From NCBI GenBank assembly GCA_903834925.1, contig CAILLA010000222.1, forward strand, positions 1-33,040: a stretch of DNA of 33,040 bases, written 5' to 3'. The position numbers and the translations under genes were made by a program. Shown here one piece after another: positions 6,958-27,462 of the stretch. Source of the DNA: an uncultured Schlesneria sp. Its GTDB lineage: Bacteria; Planctomycetota; Planctomycetia; Planctomycetales; Planctomycetaceae. Numbering within the stretch: the first letter of the stretch is position 1; each line of letters opens with the position of its first letter. The notes under the pieces are model-generated. The model worked only from the letters and a program-made list of their open reading frames with translations. It did not search any database and was not told the origin of the DNA.

Positions 6958-7054
6958 GCAATCGAAATATCCCCAAATCATTTTGGGCAGAGCGTCCGTG
7001 GCGAGAAAAGAATAAATGCGTCTCGCCGCGAGTATAAGGGAGGCGAGTCTTCAG

Positions 7055-7297
7055 TCGCGAAGCGACGCAGGAATACAGCCAGGGGTTTCAACCCCTGGAA
7101 AGACGCACCGTATTCTGACATGAAGTCCCAACGGGACGCAGGTGGACCTCGCAATCATGCCAGACCTCAGTTTGTTAGCGGCATTGGTCGCAATCAAAAT
7201 CACCTGCGCCCTTCTCAGGGCTGATGTTGGATTGCGCGGGATCGCGGCCACGGGGTTGAAGCCACCGGGCTAAATACCTGCGTCGCTTTGCGACTGA
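7055..7297. repeat. About 240-bp gene-free element with inverted ends
   Basis: GTCGCGAAGCGACGC at 7055-7069 is the reverse complement of GCGTCGCTTTGCGAC at 7283-7297 with one mismatch. Inside are several small perfect hairpins, for example AGGGGTTTCAACCCCT near 7080 and TCCCAACGGGA near 7126. No reading frame looks coding. This resembles non-autonomous, structured dispersed repeats seen in large environmental genomes; copy number cannot be judged from one window. Confidence 0.5.
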
Positions 7298-19758: not shown

Positions 19759-20706
19759 CTAGAAGTCGCCCGGCACTTCGCCTCCATTAATGCTGACCAG
19801 ACCATTCAGCAGATTCTGATCCACATTTTGACTGACGAATCGAACGGAACCGTCACCTAAAAGGGCGTGGCAACCACCCACATGGGCACTTCCCGCCCTC
19901 CAGGCATAGACGTACTTCGAAGTTAAATACGGCTGATTAATACCATATGCCGGAATGATGAAATGCGTATGAGTGTAAGCGGTCAAAAACGGCCCGTATG
20001 CCGGATCATACTTGTGCAGCGGGGTTTCAATCATCAAAAAGGTATTGGTTGACCCGTCCTTGATGTCCCTTAAGCCAGCGGCGCCATTGAATCCACCAAA
20101 AGCAGCACGGTTTGCATTAGCATTTGCAGACCAAAGCTTGCCGGCCTGGAGATCGTATTCTGTTGTTTCAGACACAAATCCATAACTGACACGTTCAGCC
20201 TGATTGATGGTATACATATTCTGGGTTGCGTACGTGTGCGGGGAGTCATAAACAATATCGCTAGGGCATTGAAATGCGGGAACTTTCAGATTTTGTAATA
20301 CGACCTGATCATTACCCCCACCCAAGGCCAGCCAGTCCGCTTTACCAGTCGCAATGCTGAAGTTCACTTGATTGTAAACATTTGACTGATCAATGTACGG
20401 AAGCAAGTATAAGTAGCCGGTGAAGTTCCGAACCTGACCAGCCGGAACAAAGCTTGACGAGAGGTTACTTCCCGGATTAACGGCAGATGGAGGGAAGGAA
20501 CTGTAGTTATCATGGTAATTGTGTAAAGCGAGACCCATCTGCTTGAAGTTGTTTTTACACTGCGTCCGTCGAGCCGATTCACGCGCCTGCTGTACCGCAG
20601 GCAAAAGAAGAGCAATCAAGACGGCAATGATGGCAATAACAACAAGCAACTCAATTAGCGTAAATCCGCGGCACCTAGAAGACAGTTTTCTACGATTGTG
20701 AAACAT
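19759..20706 (-). CDS. DUF1559 protein with type IV pilin-like N-terminus
   Basis: The 315-residue protein shows the same prepilin-like leader ([18 protein letters not shown]), the [15 protein letters not shown] signature and a C-terminal H-x9-DG motif (SAHVGGCHALLGDGSVRF). ATG 20706 is taken as the start because AGAGGTG on the minus strand (complement of 20712-20719) lies at the right distance and because DUF1559 proteins usually begin only 10-20 residues before the hydrophobic helix. The frame continues upstream to 20841 but that part looks non-coding. It is a paralogue of 15089-16105 with clearly different central sequence, so this is not a recent duplication. The lipoprotein gene 19136-19609 follows. 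Confidence 0.93.
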   Translation of the reverse strand: MFHNRRKLSSRCRGFTLIELLVVIAIIAVLIALLLPAVQQARESARRTQCKNNFKQMGLALHNYHDNYSSFPPSAVNPGSNLSSSFVPAGQVRNFTGYLYLLPYIDQSNVYNQVNFSIATGKADWLALGGGNDQVVLQNLKVPAFQCPSDIVYDSPHTYATQNMYTINQAERVSYGFVSETTEYDLQAGKLWSANANANRAAFGGFNGAAGLRDIKDGSTNTFLMIETPLHKYDPAYGPFLTAYTHTHFIIPAYGINQPYLTSKYVYAWRAGSAHVGGCHALLGDGSVRFVSQNVDQNLLNGLVSINGGEVPGDF

Positions 20707-21260
20707 CAAACACCTCTTGTAAGAAAAGGAAACCGAAACCAGAACTTGCGAAAGCAAGTGAATCCTGAGGTTGGTGCGAGATTTAAGAAATATTGGCCAA
20801 TGGCTTGCTGGGCTCATTTCGGGAACGCGATTCATGAGCATTAATCAGTGAACAGCAAACTCTGTGCCCTCCGCTTGCGGAGGGTCCTGAAAGTGAAGGC
20901 CTTGCCCGATGCGTTGACATCGAGAGGTGAATACTCGTGGTGAATTCGGTGAAACGGACGCCCGAACGCTGCCGACTTCATCGATTCGCTTGCATTATGG
21001 GGTATGGCATCGGCGTTTGATCCGGAGAGATTCCAATATCCGAAGGTCCGTCGCTTCACTGATGAAATTCAGAAGGAAGCGTCGATCGTGATTGTTGATC
21101 GATCCATAATGTTTGATCGATAAGCAAGTATGGTGACGTTCAAGGCAGACGGACAACCGCACAGTTTGCGACCATGCCCCAGCGGGTAATATCGCCATCG
21201 GACGGCTTGTGGTAGTTCCCAGACGCGGTGAATCTTCTTGACGTGAGTTTCAGGAGTTAA

Positions 21261-21359: not shown

Positions 21360-21612
21360 GCGAATCGGCCTTTTCGGTCGCTGTCTCCGAGAGCCTGTCA
21401 GCATCCATTTTCTTGATCGCTTCAATCGTCTTTCCGGCACCCGCACTGACGACAGGTTGGACTTCGTTAGCAAAGGACTGGAAACGGGCTTCAACCCGTT
21501 CGGTTGACTGAACTGCTCGCACCAGTTTCGGTGGTAGGCCAAATACGATCTCGCAACAACCGGCGACCATCACGAGTCGATTTGCTACCAGCACAAATCG
21601 ACCGTAATGCAT
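21316..21612 (-). CDS. Doubtful hypothetical protein
   Basis: From ATG 21612 the frame gives 98 residues beginning MHYGRFVLVANRLVMVAGC, with a C-terminal half rich in Ala, Glu, Lys and Asp (KTIEAIKKMDADRLSETATE, then a further AADxxxR helix) that would form an amphipathic helix. Its composition is protein-like, but I recognise no domain and there is no clear ribosome binding site. A longer version from TTG 21738 would run antisense across the promoter and leader region of cimA and is less likely. Confidence 0.35.
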   Translation of the reverse strand: MHYGRFVLVANRLVMVAGCCEIVFGLPPKLVRAVQSTERVEARFQSFANEVQPVVSAGAGKTIEAIKKMDADRLSETATEKADSLMDAAAERQTPSVA

Positions 21613-21619
21613 CTCCGAT

Positions 21620-21648
21620 TTGACGCGGCTCGAACGAATGTTTATGAT
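21620..21648 (+). promoter_or_regulatory. Sigma70-type promoter for the cimA leader
   Basis: TTGACG at 21620-21625 and TATGAT at 21643-21648 are separated by exactly 17 bp, each one base from consensus. Transcription would start near 21655, about 45 nt upstream of the leader ORF. This places the leader peptide, the antiterminator and the terminator in one 5' untranslated region. Confidence 0.7.
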
Positions 21649-21698
21649 CTGCGTCTCTACTCCAATTTGAGTAACAACGTTTCTGCAAGGTTTTCTCG

Positions 21699-21791
21699 AT
21701 GTCGCTTCCGTCGTCAGGTCGTAGTCTGCATGATTCAACAGCGATATTCGCTGTTCGAATTATTGTGATTTCGATTATTGGAGACGTGTAA
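21699..21791 (+). CDS. Ile/Val-rich leader peptide (attenuator) of cimA
   Basis: This 30-codon ORF starts at ATG 21699, 8 nt after AAGG (21687-21690), and stops at TAA 21789-21791. The first half is unremarkable (MSLPSSGRSLHDSTA). The second half, IFAVRIIVISIIGDV, has 6 Ile and 3 Val in 15 codons. In the known ilv leader peptides such runs make the ribosome stall when branched-chain aminoacyl-tRNA is short. The next gene makes citramalate, a precursor of isoleucine, so the codon run matches the end product. The stop codon lies 4 nt before the candidate antiterminator strand, and the terminator stem starts 34 nt after it. The function is inferred from this layout; no homologue was checked. Confidence 0.75.
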   Translation: MSLPSSGRSLHDSTAIFAVRIIVISIIGDV

Positions 21792-21795
21792 GCGG

Positions 21796-21837
21796 CCTCG
21801 GGGTGTTATTGAACAAATACAACACAAGCCCTCAGGT
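21796..21837 (+). promoter_or_regulatory. Candidate antiterminator of the cimA attenuator
   Basis: CCTCGGGG (21796-21803) can pair with CCCTCAGG (21829-21836), the 5' arm of the terminator, with one mismatch and one G-U pair. TGTT (21804-21807) can extend the helix with AACA (21821-21824) after a short bulge. A ribosome stalled on the Ile codons (to 21779) would leave 21796 onward free. A ribosome at the stop codon 21789-21791 would cover it and let the terminator form. I fitted the pairing by eye and did not compute energies. Confidence 0.6.
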
Positions 21838-21856
21838 TGCACCTGAGGGCTTTTTT
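21826..21856 (+). terminator. Intrinsic terminator in the cimA leader (attenuator)
   Basis: AAGCCCTCAGGT (21826-21837) and ACCTGAGGGCTT (21841-21852) form a perfect 12-bp stem with a TGC loop. The U-run covers 21851-21856. There is no plus-strand gene for over 4 kb upstream except the leader ORF, and cimA starts within about 35 nt, so this is best read as an attenuator rather than the end of another transcript. Confidence 0.85.
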
Positions 21857-21887
21857 CTTAATGCGAATCGATACCGAAAGTAGACTC

Positions 21888-23465
21888 ATGCCGAGAATCC
21901 AGATCTACGATACGACACTGCGAGATGGCAGTCAGGGCGAAGGAATCAATTTCTCGCTGCAAGATAAGCTGATGATCACTCAGAAGCTGGACGATGTTGG
22001 CATCGATTTCATCGAGGGTGGGTATCCTCTTTCGAACCCGAAAGATGCCGAATACTTCGTTCGTGTTCGCGATCTGACTTTGAAGCATGCAAAGATCGTG
22101 GCGTTCGGGATGACGCGGCGACGAGGCTGCGCCGCAGAAGACGATATCGGCATGTGTGCCTTACGCGATGCTCATTCGCCGGTTGTCACGATCGTCGGCA
22201 AGACCTGGGACTTGCATGTCACCGAAGTGCTCAACGTCGATGAAGCGGAAAACCTGGCGATGATTCGTGATTCCGTGGCGTTCCTGAAGGCGGAAGGGCG
22301 CGAAGTCTTCTATGACGCCGAACATTTCTTCGATGGTTTTCGAGCCAACCCCGAGTTTGCGCTCAAGACCGTTGTGGCAGCTCAAAATGCCGGCGCCAGT
22401 ACGATCGTCCTGTGTGACACGAACGGAGGACGGCTGCCGGAAGACATCGCCAAGGCGGTCGAAGCGGTGCGTAAAGAACTGAAAATTCCCGTTGGTATCC
22501 ATTGTCACAACGATTGTGAACTGGCGGTCGCGAACTCGTTGACTGCCGTCGATCATGGTGCGATCCAGGTTCAAGGAACGATCAACGGTATCGGCGAGCG
22601 TTGCGGGAATGTCGACCTGATCAGTGTCGTCGGCAATCTGGCTTTGAAAAAGGGATACGACGTCCTGCTGCCGGGTGGCATGGTTCACCTGACAGAACTG
22701 TCTCGTTACGTCTACGAGATTGCCAACATGAACTTTCGGTCGGGTCAGGCTTTCGTGGGGACCAGTGCTTTCGCTCACAAGGGAGGCATGCACGTGCATG
22801 CCGTGAACCGTCTGGCATCCAGCTACGAACACATTCCGCCGGAAACCGTCGGCAACCAACGACGTGTTTTGGTGAGCGAACTATCCGGACGATCCAACAT
22901 CATCGCCAAAACAACAAAGTATCAGATCGAAAATGACAAAGTTCTGATGGGACGAATCCTGGAACGAGTGGTCGATCTGGAGAACGAGGGCTATCAGTTC
23001 GAGGCGGCGGAAGCGTCGTTTGATCTGCTCGTCCGCAAAGAGGCTGGTGTCTATCAACCGAAATTCCAGCGGCTGCATTACCGCGTAAATGTCGAAACAA
23101 CGGCAGGACAGGGAACCATTACCGAAGCGACGGTCAAACTGCGAGTCGACTCGCACACGGAACACGTCGTGGCGGAAGGTGACGGTCCGGTGAATGCTCT
23201 CGATAATGCCTTGCGAAAAGCACTGTCAGTGGCATATCCGAACCTCGCTGAAATGCAACTTGTCGATTACAAAGTGCGAGTCATCAATTCGGCGGAAGGG
23301 ACCGCGGCCCGAGTTCGCGTCGTGATCGAAAGTCGCGACCACACCGACGTCTGGAGTACCGTCGGTGTCAGCGAGAACGTGATCGAAGCAAGCTGGCTGG
23401 CTCTGGTCGATAGTGTGGAATACAAACTGTATAAAGATAGTGAGGTCAAGGCGGGGGTTGTTTGA
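21888..23465 (+). CDS. cimA: (R)-citramalate synthase
   Basis: The 525-residue protein belongs to the alpha-isopropylmalate/homocitrate synthase family, citramalate synthase group, which condenses pyruvate and acetyl-CoA to citramalate, the first step of the threonine-independent route to 2-ketobutyrate and isoleucine. The TIM barrel opens with IYDTTLRDGSQGEGINFS, where R and D are the catalytic/metal-site residues. HCHNDCELAVANS supplies the metal-binding HxH and N. GTINGIGERCGNVDL is the second family signature and NMNFRSGQAFVGTSAFAHKG is typical of the CimA subgroup. The C-terminal LeuA dimer/allosteric domain (about 395-520) would bind the inhibitor isoleucine. I chose ATG 21888 because MPRIQIYDTT matches usual family starts. 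ATG 21861 (nine residues longer, just after the terminator U-run) is the alternative. No ilv or leu gene follows in the window. Confidence 0.93.
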   Translation: MPRIQIYDTTLRDGSQGEGINFSLQDKLMITQKLDDVGIDFIEGGYPLSNPKDAEYFVRVRDLTLKHAKIVAFGMTRRRGCAAEDDIGMCALRDAHSPVVTIVGKTWDLHVTEVLNVDEAENLAMIRDSVAFLKAEGREVFYDAEHFFDGFRANPEFALKTVVAAQNAGASTIVLCDTNGGRLPEDIAKAVEAVRKELKIPVGIHCHNDCELAVANSLTAVDHGAIQVQGTINGIGERCGNVDLISVVGNLALKKGYDVLLPGGMVHLTELSRYVYEIANMNFRSGQAFVGTSAFAHKGGMHVHAVNRLASSYEHIPPETVGNQRRVLVSELSGRSNIIAKTTKYQIENDKVLMGRILERVVDLENEGYQFEAAEASFDLLVRKEAGVYQPKFQRLHYRVNVETTAGQGTITEATVKLRVDSHTEHVVAEGDGPVNALDNALRKALSVAYPNLAEMQLVDYKVRVINSAEGTAARVRVVIESRDHTDVWSTVGVSENVIEASWLALVDSVEYKLYKDSEVKAGVV

Positions 23466-23767: not shown

Positions 23768-24397
23768 ATGAGCGTTGGTCTTCTTGATGATCTGCGTGAC
23801 GGGGTCAATTTGAATCTGGCACCGCTGACCGTCGATCAATACCGCCAGATGATTCGTGATGGAATTCTTCACGACGCCGAACCGATCGAATTGATCCAGG
23901 GGACGCAGCTCTATAAAGACCGCAGGGATCAGGCGGGAGGGATCAAGGCGCACGGACCGAATCATCTGCGATCGCTCAATAAATTGATGGCCGTACTGTC
24001 ACAGTGGGTTGCATCAAAGGCGGCATTTCTTCAAGTCCAGGGGCCGATTGTCATCAGTGACAACAGTGAGCCTGAACCAGACTGTTGTCTCGTTCGCGGA
24101 ACGCCAGATGATTTTGCCGAATCAGTTCCACATGCCACTGATGTGATCGCCGTTTTTGAGGTCGCGGACAGTTCGCTTTTGTCAGATCGGCGGACGAAGC
24201 AGCGGCTTTATGCCAGCCAGGCGATACCCGTTTACGTAATCGTTAATCTTCAGGACGAATTGATCGAAGTCCTTTCGGAACCTTTGGCCGATGAGCAGCG
24301 TTATCAGGCTCAGTCGGTCTATCGAACTTCTGAGACCGTCATATTCGACGTTGATCAATTCGGACCACTTTCCTTTCTTGTCGATAGCGTGATTTGA
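23768..24397 (+). CDS. Uma2-family (DUF820) PD-(D/E)XK nuclease-like protein
   Basis: The 209-residue protein fits the Uma2/DUF820 family, which shares the restriction-endonuclease-like fold and is highly expanded in cyanobacteria and planctomycetes. The pattern seen is E41 in IELIQG, PEPD at 102-105, then E131 in VFEVADSSLLSD and a downstream K144 in RRTKQRLYA, as expected of a PD-(D/E)XK core. Nuclease activity has rarely been shown and the biological role is not known. The start is supported by GGAGG seven nt before ATG 23768. It ends 8 bp before the start of valS, so the two genes are probably in one transcript, though no functional link is apparent. Confidence 0.88.
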   Translation: MSVGLLDDLRDGVNLNLAPLTVDQYRQMIRDGILHDAEPIELIQGTQLYKDRRDQAGGIKAHGPNHLRSLNKLMAVLSQWVASKAAFLQVQGPIVISDNSEPEPDCCLVRGTPDDFAESVPHATDVIAVFEVADSSLLSDRRTKQRLYASQAIPVYVIVNLQDELIEVLSEPLADEQRYQAQSVYRTSETVIFDVDQFGPLSFLVDSVI

Positions 24398-24405
24398 AAA
24401 GACCC

Positions 24406-27400
24406 ATGACGACTGAAATTCCAAAGCAATACGATCCCGCCCTGGCTGAAGCTCGTTGGTTCCCTTTTTGGGAAGAACGAGGTGACTTCAATGCCAATCC
24501 GCCGAAGCCGAGTGATCCACATCCCAAGCCACCGCATGTGATCATGATCCCGTTGCCGAACGTGACGGGTGCGCTGCATATGGGACATGCGCTCAATGGA
24601 ACGTTGCAAGACCTGCTGACTCGTTGGCGCCGGATGCAGGGTTATGAAGCCCTTTGGATGCCGGGGACCGATCACGCGGGGATTGCGACTCAATCGGTCG
24701 TCGAAAAACGGATGCTCGAAGAAGAGGGCCTGACCCGGCACGACATCGGCCGTGAGGCACTCGTCAAGCGGATCTGGACCTGGAAAGACGCATACGAAAA
24801 ACGGATTCTCAGCCAGTTGAAAAGCCTGGGTGCAAGCTGCGACTGGCGACGGGTCCGGTTCACTCTGGACGATGTTTGCTCGCGCGCCGTGCGACAGACA
24901 TTTTTTAAAATGTTCAAAGACGGACTCATCTATCGCGGCAAGCGGCTGGTGAACTGGGATACGTTTCTGCAAACCGCAGTGGCTGATGACGAAGTCTACG
25001 ACGAAGAGATCGACGGTCACTTCTGGACAATGAACTACCCAGTGATCGACGATGCGGGCCAACCAACGGGTGACCGTATTTCGTTTAGCACAACTCGTCC
25101 CGAGACGATGCTTGGAGATACGGCAGTCTGCGTTCATCCAACTGACGAGCGATACACTCATCTGATCGGCAAACGAGTTCGCATCCCCATTAACGGTCGG
25201 TTGATTCCGATCGTGGCGGATGCATTGCTGGCAGACAAAACGCTGGGAACCGGCTGCGTGAAGGTGACCCCTGCGCACGACCCGAACGACTACGCCTGCT
25301 GGACTCGCAACAAAGAAGCGATGGGCGAGCCGATCAACATTTTGAATCCCGATGGGACCCTGAACGAGAACGGCGGAACATGGCAGGGGCTGGACCGACT
25401 GGTCGCACGTGATGCCGTGGTGGCCGAGATGGAAAAGCTGGGACACTTCGAGAAAGTGGAAGATCGCAAGATTCCGCTGAAACATAGTGATCGCTCGAAG
25501 ACTCCGGTCGAGCCGTACCTGTCCGAACAATGGTTCGTGAAGATGGACACGCTGGCCCAGGCCGCGATCGATGCCGTCAACGACAACCGGGTGACGTTCT
25601 ATCCCGAACGATACCGTTCGTCATATCTCGACTGGTTGGGCGAGAAGCGGGACTGGTGTATCAGCCGACAACTCTGGTGGGGACACCGGATTCCGGTCTG
25701 GTCAAAGACGTTTGAAGACGAAAGCGCTGCTCGAAAGGCAAAAGCGGAGTTTGTGGCGTCGTCAAAATTCGACAGTGGATTGATCGAGTTCACGGTTCAC
25801 GCATTGTCAGGTTCATCGGCGGCAGCAGGTGGCGCTTTATTGCAGGCTTGCCTGGCGACTGACGATGTGGAATGGACTGCGGAGATCGAATCGCACGGTT
25901 TCAAACGGGATGAAGATGTCCTGGATACCTGGTTCAGTTCAGCACTCTGGCCGCACGCGACGCTCGGCTGGCCTGACCTCAAACACAATCCTCCGCTTGA
26001 CGGCCACGCAGACCCTTCGGCGACGGGCACGAACGAAGTCCTGCCGTACTTTTATCCCGGCAGCGTGCTGGTGACCTCGCGTGACATCATCACGTTGTGG
26101 GTGGCACGGATGGTGCTGACGGGCCTGTATAACATGGGGGACGTTCCGTTCAAACACGTTTGTATTCATCCGAAAATACAGGATGGATTCGGGCAGACGA
26201 TGTCGAAGTCGAAGGGGAACGGCGTTGATCCGATCGAATTGATCGAGAAATACGGCTGCGACGGAATGCGGTTTACGATCGCGTCGTTCGCGGGCGAGAC
26301 GCAGGACGTGCGGTTGCCGGTCGGCTACGAGTGCCCTCATTGCCAGGCGGTGATTCCGCAGGAACCGCATCATCTGAAATTCAAACCGGGCAAGCCGAAG
26401 ATCAAATGCCCCAAGTGCAAGAAGGAATCACAGTACGCCACGCCGAACTACATTCCGGACGAAGGTGAACTGGTCGCGAGAATCGTGATCGAACGCTTCG
26501 AGTTCGGTCGTAACTTCTGCAACAAACTGTGGAACGCCGCCCGGTTCGCGATGATGAATCTGGAAGGCTATACGCCGGGCACCGTTGATCCCACATCGCT
26601 GGCCATTGAGGATCGCTGGGTTCTGTCACGACTGGCCACGGTCACGGACGAAGTGACTTCGTTACTAAGTGTCTACAAGTTTGACGCGGCGACTCGTTCG
26701 TTACGTGACTTCGTCTGGAACGAGTTCTGTGACTGGTATCTGGAAATGATCAAGCCTCGCCTGCGAGACGAAGCTCTCAAGCCGACGGCTCAGCGAGTCC
26801 TCGTGGCCGTGCTCGATACGACCTTAAGGCTGCTACATCCGTTTACGCCCTTTATTACGGAAGAGCTTTGGCAGCGATTGGCTGAAATCGCCCCCGAGCG
26901 AGGTCTTCCTTCTCCGGCTAAGGTGTCTGCCGCGATCATCGTTGCCCCGTGGCCAACGGGTCTTGAGGGCTATCGAGACGCTTCACTTGAGGCCCGTTTC
27001 CAGAGATTACAAGACCTGATCGTCGCCGTCAGAAATGTGCGAGGGACCTATAACATCAGCCCCGCCGTCGCCGTTTCGATCTCCGTTCGTTGTTCGCCCG
27101 AGATTGCTGCCGACCTCAATCAAGTAAAGCCGCAGTTCGAGATGCTGGCCAAGGCGACGCTGACCGATGCTGGACCGGGTGTCACTCGACCCAATGCGAG
27201 TGCCAGCTTTGCCCTCGGTGAAGCCGATGGATACCTCCCTTTGGAAGGGTTGGTCGATCTCCAGGCCGAAGTAGCACGCCTCAAGAAAGAGGCGGAGAAG
27301 CTGCGCGGATTCATCGCGGGGCACGAGAAGAAGCTCTCAAACCAGAGCTTCATCGATCGAGCTCCGCCGGAAGTCGTCGTCGAAGTTCGTGAAACCTTGG

Positions 27401-27462
27401 CGGGACTTCAAAATCAACTGAACAGCATCGAGGACGCGGCGAAGCAGTTGTCGGGAGCATAA
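24406..27462 (+). CDS. valS: Valyl-tRNA synthetase with zinc-ribbon insertion
   Basis: The 1018-residue protein is a class Ia aminoacyl-tRNA synthetase that charges tRNA-Val. The HIGH motif appears as HMGH (58-61, after PLPNVTGAL) and the KMSKS motif as TMSKS (598-602). The editing CP1 domain is between them (SFSTTRPETMLGDTAVCVHP), followed by the RDWCISRQLWWGHRIPVW segment. After KMSKS there is a CPHC (643-646) ... CPKC (668-671) pair, a zinc-ribbon-like insertion not present in E. coli ValRS. The C-terminal anticodon-binding domain and a coiled-coil arm (about 945-1010, AEVARLKKEAEKLRGFIAGH) are complete. ATG 24406 is used rather than the TTG at 24394, which overlaps the previous stop. A hairpin repeat begins 6 bp after the stop codon. 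Confidence 0.96.
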   Translation: MTTEIPKQYDPALAEARWFPFWEERGDFNANPPKPSDPHPKPPHVIMIPLPNVTGALHMGHALNGTLQDLLTRWRRMQGYEALWMPGTDHAGIATQSVVEKRMLEEEGLTRHDIGREALVKRIWTWKDAYEKRILSQLKSLGASCDWRRVRFTLDDVCSRAVRQTFFKMFKDGLIYRGKRLVNWDTFLQTAVADDEVYDEEIDGHFWTMNYPVIDDAGQPTGDRISFSTTRPETMLGDTAVCVHPTDERYTHLIGKRVRIPINGRLIPIVADALLADKTLGTGCVKVTPAHDPNDYACWTRNKEAMGEPINILNPDGTLNENGGTWQGLDRLVARDAVVAEMEKLGHFEKVEDRKIPLKHSDRSKTPVEPYLSEQWFVKMDTLAQAAIDAVNDNRVTFYPERYRSSYLDWLGEKRDWCISRQLWWGHRIPVWSKTFEDESAARKAKAEFVASSKFDSGLIEFTVHALSGSSAAAGGALLQACLATDDVEWTAEIESHGFKRDEDVLDTWFSSALWPHATLGWPDLKHNPPLDGHADPSATGTNEVLPYFYPGSVLVTSRDIITLWVARMVLTGLYNMGDVPFKHVCIHPKIQDGFGQTMSKSKGNGVDPIELIEKYGCDGMRFTIASFAGETQDVRLPVGYECPHCQAVIPQEPHHLKFKPGKPKIKCPKCKKESQYATPNYIPDEGELVARIVIERFEFGRNFCNKLWNAARFAMMNLEGYTPGTVDPTSLAIEDRWVLSRLATVTDEVTSLLSVYKFDAATRSLRDFVWNEFCDWYLEMIKPRLRDEALKPTAQRVLVAVLDTTLRLLHPFTPFITEELWQRLAEIAPERGLPSPAKVSAAIIVAPWPTGLEGYRDASLEARFQRLQDLIVAVRNVRGTYNISPAVAVSISVRCSPEIAADLNQVKPQFEMLAKATLTDAGPGVTRPNASASFALGEADGYLPLEGLVDLQAEVARLKKEAEKLRGFIAGHEKKLSNQSFIDRAPPEVVVEVRETLAGLQNQLNSIEDAAKQLSGA

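Follow-up and report, generated by a model that had tools for sequence, protein, structure and literature searches.

A probable ribosome-mediated transcription attenuator upstream of cimA in Planctomycetota, with leader codons that appear to follow valS linkage

Features of the cimA locus

The window, a stretch of 33,040 nucleotides from the forward strand of contig CAILLA010000222.1 in the 9.02-Mb assembly GCA_903834925.1 of an uncultured Schlesneria sp., encodes on its plus strand a citramalate synthase (cimA, 21888-23465, with ATG at 21888; 681.4 bits to TIGR00977, for which the cut-off is 450, E 6.5e-205) and, after a gap of 0.94 kb, a valyl-tRNA synthetase (valS, 24406-27462, start ATG; over the cut-offs of NF004349 and TIGR00422 with 24409-27462 as the profile query). 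The gap contains an ORF on the same strand (23768-24397) without an NCBIfam match, which may be Uma2-like. In two loci of the same genus (L003 and L005) valS directly follows cimA and the intervening ORF is absent; the ORF has therefore been gained or lost within the genus.

Upstream of cimA, also on the plus strand, a putative sigma-70-type promoter (21620-21648) consists of TTGACG (21620-21625), a 17-nucleotide spacer and TATGAT (21643-21648), from which the transcript would start at about 21655. A predicted leader peptide ORF of 30 codons follows (21699-21791, MSLPSSGRSLHDSTAIFAVRIIVISIIGDV, with ATG at 21699 and the stop codon TAA at 21789-21791). Its last 15 codons (21744-21788) include 6 Ile and 3 Val, and the C-terminal end of the peptide is IFAVRIIVISIIGDV. 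The first antiterminator pair, at 21795, lies 4 nucleotides past the stop codon and begins strand 2, the 5' arm of the candidate antiterminator (21795-21804), which folds with strand 3 (21826-21837) at -12.3 kcal/mol. Strand 3 is also the predicted partner of strand 4 (21841-21852), which with the U-run (21853-21858) belongs to a putative intrinsic terminator (-20.8 kcal/mol) of 12 pairs (21826-21837/21841-21852), a loop of 3 and TTTTTT. The minimum free energy fold of the leader RNA (21655-21862, z = -6.88) pairs the start region of the ORF with the strand 2 region, and thus predicts a strand 1 at approximately 21695-21714 that would pair in this way when the leader is untranslated. In the leaders of this genus, including that of the window (21774-21785), GGAG is found after the last Ile-Ile codons, either immediately or one codon later.

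Scan counts for promoters and terminators alone are no evidence for these parts, the promoter scan by itself being at chance level (2 found versus 2.1 expected). The closest upstream ORF of appreciable length (19759-20841) lies on the minus strand, and the plus-strand ORFs before the terminator are all short (79 and 68 amino acids from TTG starts, 53 amino acids from an ATG, and others), the one of 53 amino acids overlapping the leader in a different frame. The locus is thus as an earlier note on this DNA had described it: a near-consensus promoter with a 17-bp spacer, a 30-codon ORF with Ile and Val concentrated in its second half, an antiterminator strand 4 nucleotides after the stop codon, and a perfect 12-bp terminator with a U-run (21826-21858) that precedes cimA and has no plus-strand gene upstream to serve. 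The frequent presence of valS downstream of cimA and the wide spread of the arrangement were both missing from that account.

Conservation of the leader and predicted pairing of its strands

Fifteen genomes of the genus were searched, the window's own included, and 14 of them have cimA at E 1e-100. Thirteen of the 14 loci retain the whole set of parts (promoter, strand 2, terminator and the frame of the leader); L015, of the same genus, lacks the arrangement by the criterion used. The earlier note had named in advance a finding that would speak against its reading, namely that close relatives have no such conserved short ORF rich in Ile and Val before cimA. This was looked for, and the ORF proved to be conserved: the C-terminal Ile/Val cluster is kept in 13/14 same-genus loci, and the stop codon, either TAA or TAG, stays in place. 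The N-terminal half of the peptide is without conservation.

From the 153 genomes of the family Planctomycetaceae that have cimA, 90 cimA loci in 53 genera were examined (30 from search results plus 60 chosen by hand, 1-4 per genus), and the arrangement, scored as a terminator adjoined by an ORF whose last 20 codons include two or more Ile and four or more Ile plus Val, was found in 75 of these loci, representing 44 genera. A wider set of 157 distinct cimA loci (171 minus L002, duplicates and short ones) has a terminator within 350 nucleotides upstream of cimA in 111 cases, versus 24 of 785 dinucleotide shuffles; beside the terminator, 80 of these 111 loci have the end of an ORF whose last 20 codons contain 4 or more Ile, versus 19/1110 shuffles. 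In 83 of 95 related loci, versus 6 of 1900 shuffles, a promoter-like TTGAC-TANNNT pair precedes the terminator by 60-230 nucleotides. Outside the family, a terminator and an Ile/Val-rich ORF are found, for example, in Gemmataceae (L052, L056, L068), Pirellulales (L069, L081, L082), Sedimentisphaerales (L110) and Planctomycetota strain ZRK32 (L100). No terminator was detected by the strict criterion at the 16 cimA loci sampled from Isosphaeraceae (L282-L297), a clade that may have lost the attenuator. The strict criterion overlooks hairpins that are weak or have long loops, although they are visible by eye (L266, L268, L270, L274, L298 and L301), and therefore the counts are likely to be lower bounds.

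The terminator arm differs between lineages (e.g., CCCTCAGG, GCCCCCGG, CCCCGAAGC and AGCCCTACC), and strand 2 tends to follow it. When partners were swapped between loci and compared by raw duplex energy, a locus' own partner was better than the swapped median in 50/95 cases, a result without discrimination that probably reflects stronger binding of GC-rich arms to any partner. After subtraction of the row and column means (95 loci, 18 arm types), the own pairing was favoured in 17 of 18 arm types, and 0 of 20000 permutations were as good; among single loci only 53/95 were favourable, with a mean of -1.38 (0/10000 permutations). Co-variation of this kind between terminator and antiterminator, the arms changing together between lineages, is what the earlier note had named as support for its reading. 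When relatives of Gemmata were included, with one representative arm per type and up to four regions each, 22 of 25 arm types favoured their own partner, and the mean was -3.76 versus -0.39 (sd 0.32) for 60 dinucleotide-shuffled sets. In this larger test the two commonest arm types with CTCAGG and CTCGGG had no preference for their own partner (+0.3 and +0.2; -2.07 and -0.31 in the centred test of 18 types), and that of arm type CCCCGGAGC was almost nil (-0.4).

Counted from the first base of each codon, strand 2 starts a median of 17 nucleotides downstream of the last Ile codon and a median of 3 nucleotides upstream of the stop codon (95 loci). Since a ribosome covers about 12 nucleotides beyond the translated codon, according to a passage of PMC4833913, this spacing fits classical attenuation, as had been supposed for the window: a ribosome stalled at the Ile codons would leave strand 2 free, and one at the stop codon would cover it.

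The same terminator might instead be controlled by a riboswitch, a T-box or a protein, with no part for the ribosome, and the region upstream of the terminator does fold somewhat better than control stretches (mean z -1.43, n=95, versus -0.31, n=72). The fold of the region is therefore variable; the conserved features are the codon cluster and the position of the stop codon, with no obvious fixed fold, as far as can be judged from these loci. No Rfam family reaches its gathering cut-off in the leader region of the window or at 16 related loci (L002 included), and this applies to the known leader families (His_leader RF00514, Phe_leader RF01859 and others); the best sub-threshold scores in 21550-21950 are those of RF04312 (28.2 bits, cut-off 59) and RF00514 (19.9 bits, cut-off 49). 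Control of this kind is accordingly regarded as highly improbable, the least probable of the alternatives considered. The only Rfam match at cut-off in the whole window is an Acido-Lenti-1 RNA located elsewhere (7053-7098, minus strand, 47.2 bits, cut-off 37).

Comparison of sequences establishes the parts, their conservation, their co-variation, their geometry and their association with particular genes, and from these the element is very probably a classical ribosome-mediated transcription attenuator upstream of cimA. It has a leader ORF rich in codons for Ile, the amino acid made through the downstream operon, an intrinsic terminator between the leader and cimA, an antiterminator that excludes the terminator and is preserved through co-variation (with raw energies non-discriminating and single loci at 53/95), a spacing at which stalling would free strand 2 and a ribosome at the stop codon would cover it, and a promoter upstream of the leader ORF that is recognized only by sequence pattern and conservation. 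The interpretation offered in the earlier note is thereby strengthened through co-variation, ribosome geometry and gene specificity. The sensed signal is most likely charged tRNA-Ile, together with charged tRNA-Val where valS is linked.

In the mechanism that we infer, RNA polymerase would start at about 21655 and a ribosome would translate the leader. With ample charged tRNA-Ile (and tRNA-Val), the ribosome would reach the stop codon at 21789 and cover strand 2, so that strands 3 and 4 would form the terminator and transcription would end at about 21858. With low charging of either tRNA, the ribosome would stall on the Ile and Val codons (21744-21788) with its leading edge short of strand 2, strand 2 would pair with strand 3, and, the antiterminator having formed, the polymerase would continue into cimA and probably valS. 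If the leader were not translated at all, pairing of the strand 2 region with the ORF start region would again favour termination.

Leader codons and the content of the operon

The leaders of 95 cimA loci contain 326 ATT, 113 ATC and 4 ATA codons, and the first 20 codons of cimA at the same loci contain 24 ATT, 111 ATC and 5 ATA; the leaders favour the Ile codon that is less used at the start of cimA.

Among other amino-acid genes of the family, leuA has a terminator upstream in 23 of 31 loci, and at 19 of the 31 the leader contains at least 5 Leu. With ORFs selected for Ile plus Leu plus Val in both cases, 22 leuA leaders average 6.2 Leu and 0.5 Ile, versus 0.8 Leu and 4.3 Ile for 106 cimA leaders. 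The leuA gene of the window's own genome (L002, G000:C170, upstream of 109039) has an attenuator-like leader (MTFNTFLLLGLLTR) with strand GCGAGGTTCAGGG and terminator ACCCTGAGACCTCGCGGTCTCGGGGT. Terminators are rare upstream of ilvB (3/29 family loci), ilvD (1/23) and trpE (1/26), and on these counts attenuation was rejected as a general feature of the amino-acid operons of the family. Control thus appears to sit at entry enzymes, cimA for the Ile branch and leuA for the Leu branch, and to be rare or absent at ilvB, ilvD and trpE in this family, which points to a conserved, gene-specific control by amino acids in Planctomycetota that is read through the translating ribosome.

The stretch from promoter to terminator is complete in itself and its RNA folds very stably in this species, as would suit a separate gene for a small RNA or a small protein, cimA having some other promoter and the Ile residues serving the peptide. 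Such a gene would not account for Ile at cimA versus Leu at leuA within one family, for Val codons that track the linkage of valS, for a strand 2 that follows the terminator arm, or for the lack of conservation in the N-terminal half of the peptide, and it is considered very unlikely.

At 62 of 110 loci valS is found downstream of cimA in the same orientation and no more than 1.6 kb away; of the other 48, 34 have no valS in at least 1.4 kb, 12 are too short to score, and at 2 (L085 and L086) it lies about 2 kb away. The pairs scored as linked include gaps of up to about 1.5 kb. It is probable that valS is the distal gene of the cimA transcription unit, co-transcription being deduced from this linkage. 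In a first count, 35 of 39 leaders with valS linked had at least 2 Val, versus 5 of 18 unlinked; two loci unlinked in that count (L016 and L018) were later moved to the linked group, with valS at about 1.4-1.5 kb. In the family set the leaders average 2.25 Val where valS is linked (n=52) versus 0.65 where it is unlinked (n=17), with L028 called unlinked (no valS in 1.5 kb), L141 called linked, and six loci of unknown linkage omitted. Averaged by genus, the values are 2.04 Val (28 genera) versus 0.49 (12 genera; Mann-Whitney p = 5e-5), and the number of Ile codons does not differ by linkage (p = 0.12). On a tree of cimA from 63 loci, independent contrasts give a slope of 1.98 Val (p = 0.014), with 15 of 16 informative contrasts in agreement, and no relation for Ile (p = 0.43). 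Thus, the leader codons appear to follow the content of the operon, with more Val where valS is linked, and would constitute a natural experiment in the retuning of an attenuator.

The attenuator could be real and its Val codons nevertheless incidental, with valS outside the regulated unit. Ile and Val resemble each other in their codons and properties, the result of the contrasts is modest (p = 0.014), and copies of valS not seen beside cimA have a terminator in 0/20 cases (one of them, L251, with only 105 nucleotides upstream, and L242, L243 and L251 from genomes without a cimA passing E 1e-100). The last result led to rejection of the proposal that valS has a Val leader of its own when it is away from cimA. 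Against incidental Val codons stand the difference between genus means, which is found for Val and not for Ile, and the near-unanimous direction of the informative contrasts; this alternative is judged unlikely, but it has to be taken seriously.

Relation to known attenuators and to Gemmata

Leader attenuators are known from ilvGMEDA and ilvBN of enterobacteria, the ilv leaders of Actinobacteria, the leuABCD operon of enterobacteria (the leu operon attenuator) and pheST of E. coli, in which a leader with cognate codons precedes a tRNA synthetase gene. The cimA leaders resemble the ilv leaders in having a short ORF with branched-chain codons, mutually exclusive antiterminator and terminator, a branched-chain target and, apparently, several amino acids sensed at once. 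They differ in the target, which is cimA and often valS as well, in belonging to the phylum Planctomycetota, and in that the ilvB and ilvD genes of the family mostly lack an upstream terminator. The leuA leader of the window's genome is of the enterobacterial leu operon kind, but belongs to a separate gene and lineage and matches no Rfam family at cut-off. In Rhodobacterales an upstream ORF with cognate codons precedes the tRNA synthetase gene cysS (according to part of PMC8632094). The cimA-valS arrangement is like pheST and cysS in placing a tRNA synthetase gene behind a leader with cognate codons, but unlike them it links ValS to the biosynthetic enzyme of another amino acid, and its leader codons are a mixture of Ile and Val.

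The literature searched, mostly titles and the openings of abstracts (PMC1262725 and PMC10272879 among them), contained no attenuator for cimA and no planctomycete amino-acid attenuator, although a broad survey of attenuators (Lopatovskaya et al. 2010) may cover planctomycetes. Searches by term in the main texts of PMC2965389 and PMC8632094 gave no mention of planctomycetes. PMC4833913, in the part consulted, counts leader genes by distance with Planctomycetes among its phyla, and a term search of it did not find cimA. The mechanism is thus already known; the target cimA and the phylum are undescribed in the literature searched.

The genus of Gemmata sp. IIL30 (L079), which includes G323 with an identical (100%) cimA, has the arrangement in 18/18 listed genomes with cimA, and the ORF tails contain at least 6 Ile plus Val in 17 of the 18 listed and 4 in the other (L267). 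Among the 30 closest cimA loci returned for IIL30, 25 have the arrangement by the strict criterion; the five that do not are all of one other genus, and in four of them a hairpin can be seen by eye. The presence of an attenuator in relatives of Gemmata matters because transcription and translation have been reported to be spatially separated there, in G. obscuriglobus (Gottshall et al. 2014, as related in passages of PMC6212462 and PMC5394234), although this is disputed: the relevant part of PMC6212462 states that some ribosomes are found together with the DNA, and calls the extent of the separation unclear. An attenuator needs a ribosome close behind RNA polymerase, and Gemmata therefore allows a direct test of coupling.

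On balance, we favour the broader proposal that a phylum-scale attenuator responding to tRNA-Ile and tRNA-Val governs cimA-valS in Planctomycetota, its codons evolving with gene content, and that coupling occurs in the genus of IIL30, though with clearly less confidence than we place in attenuation itself. If this is true, transcription and translation would be coupled in that genus at least at cimA, against the separation reported for G. obscuriglobus.

Ten leaders from relatives of Gemmata (L052, L057, L064, L068, L266, L268, L270, L274, L298 and L299) share the sequence GCGCAGGGAGTGCGC, which encodes the peptide AQGVR and is a perfect 5-bp hairpin inside the leader ORF.
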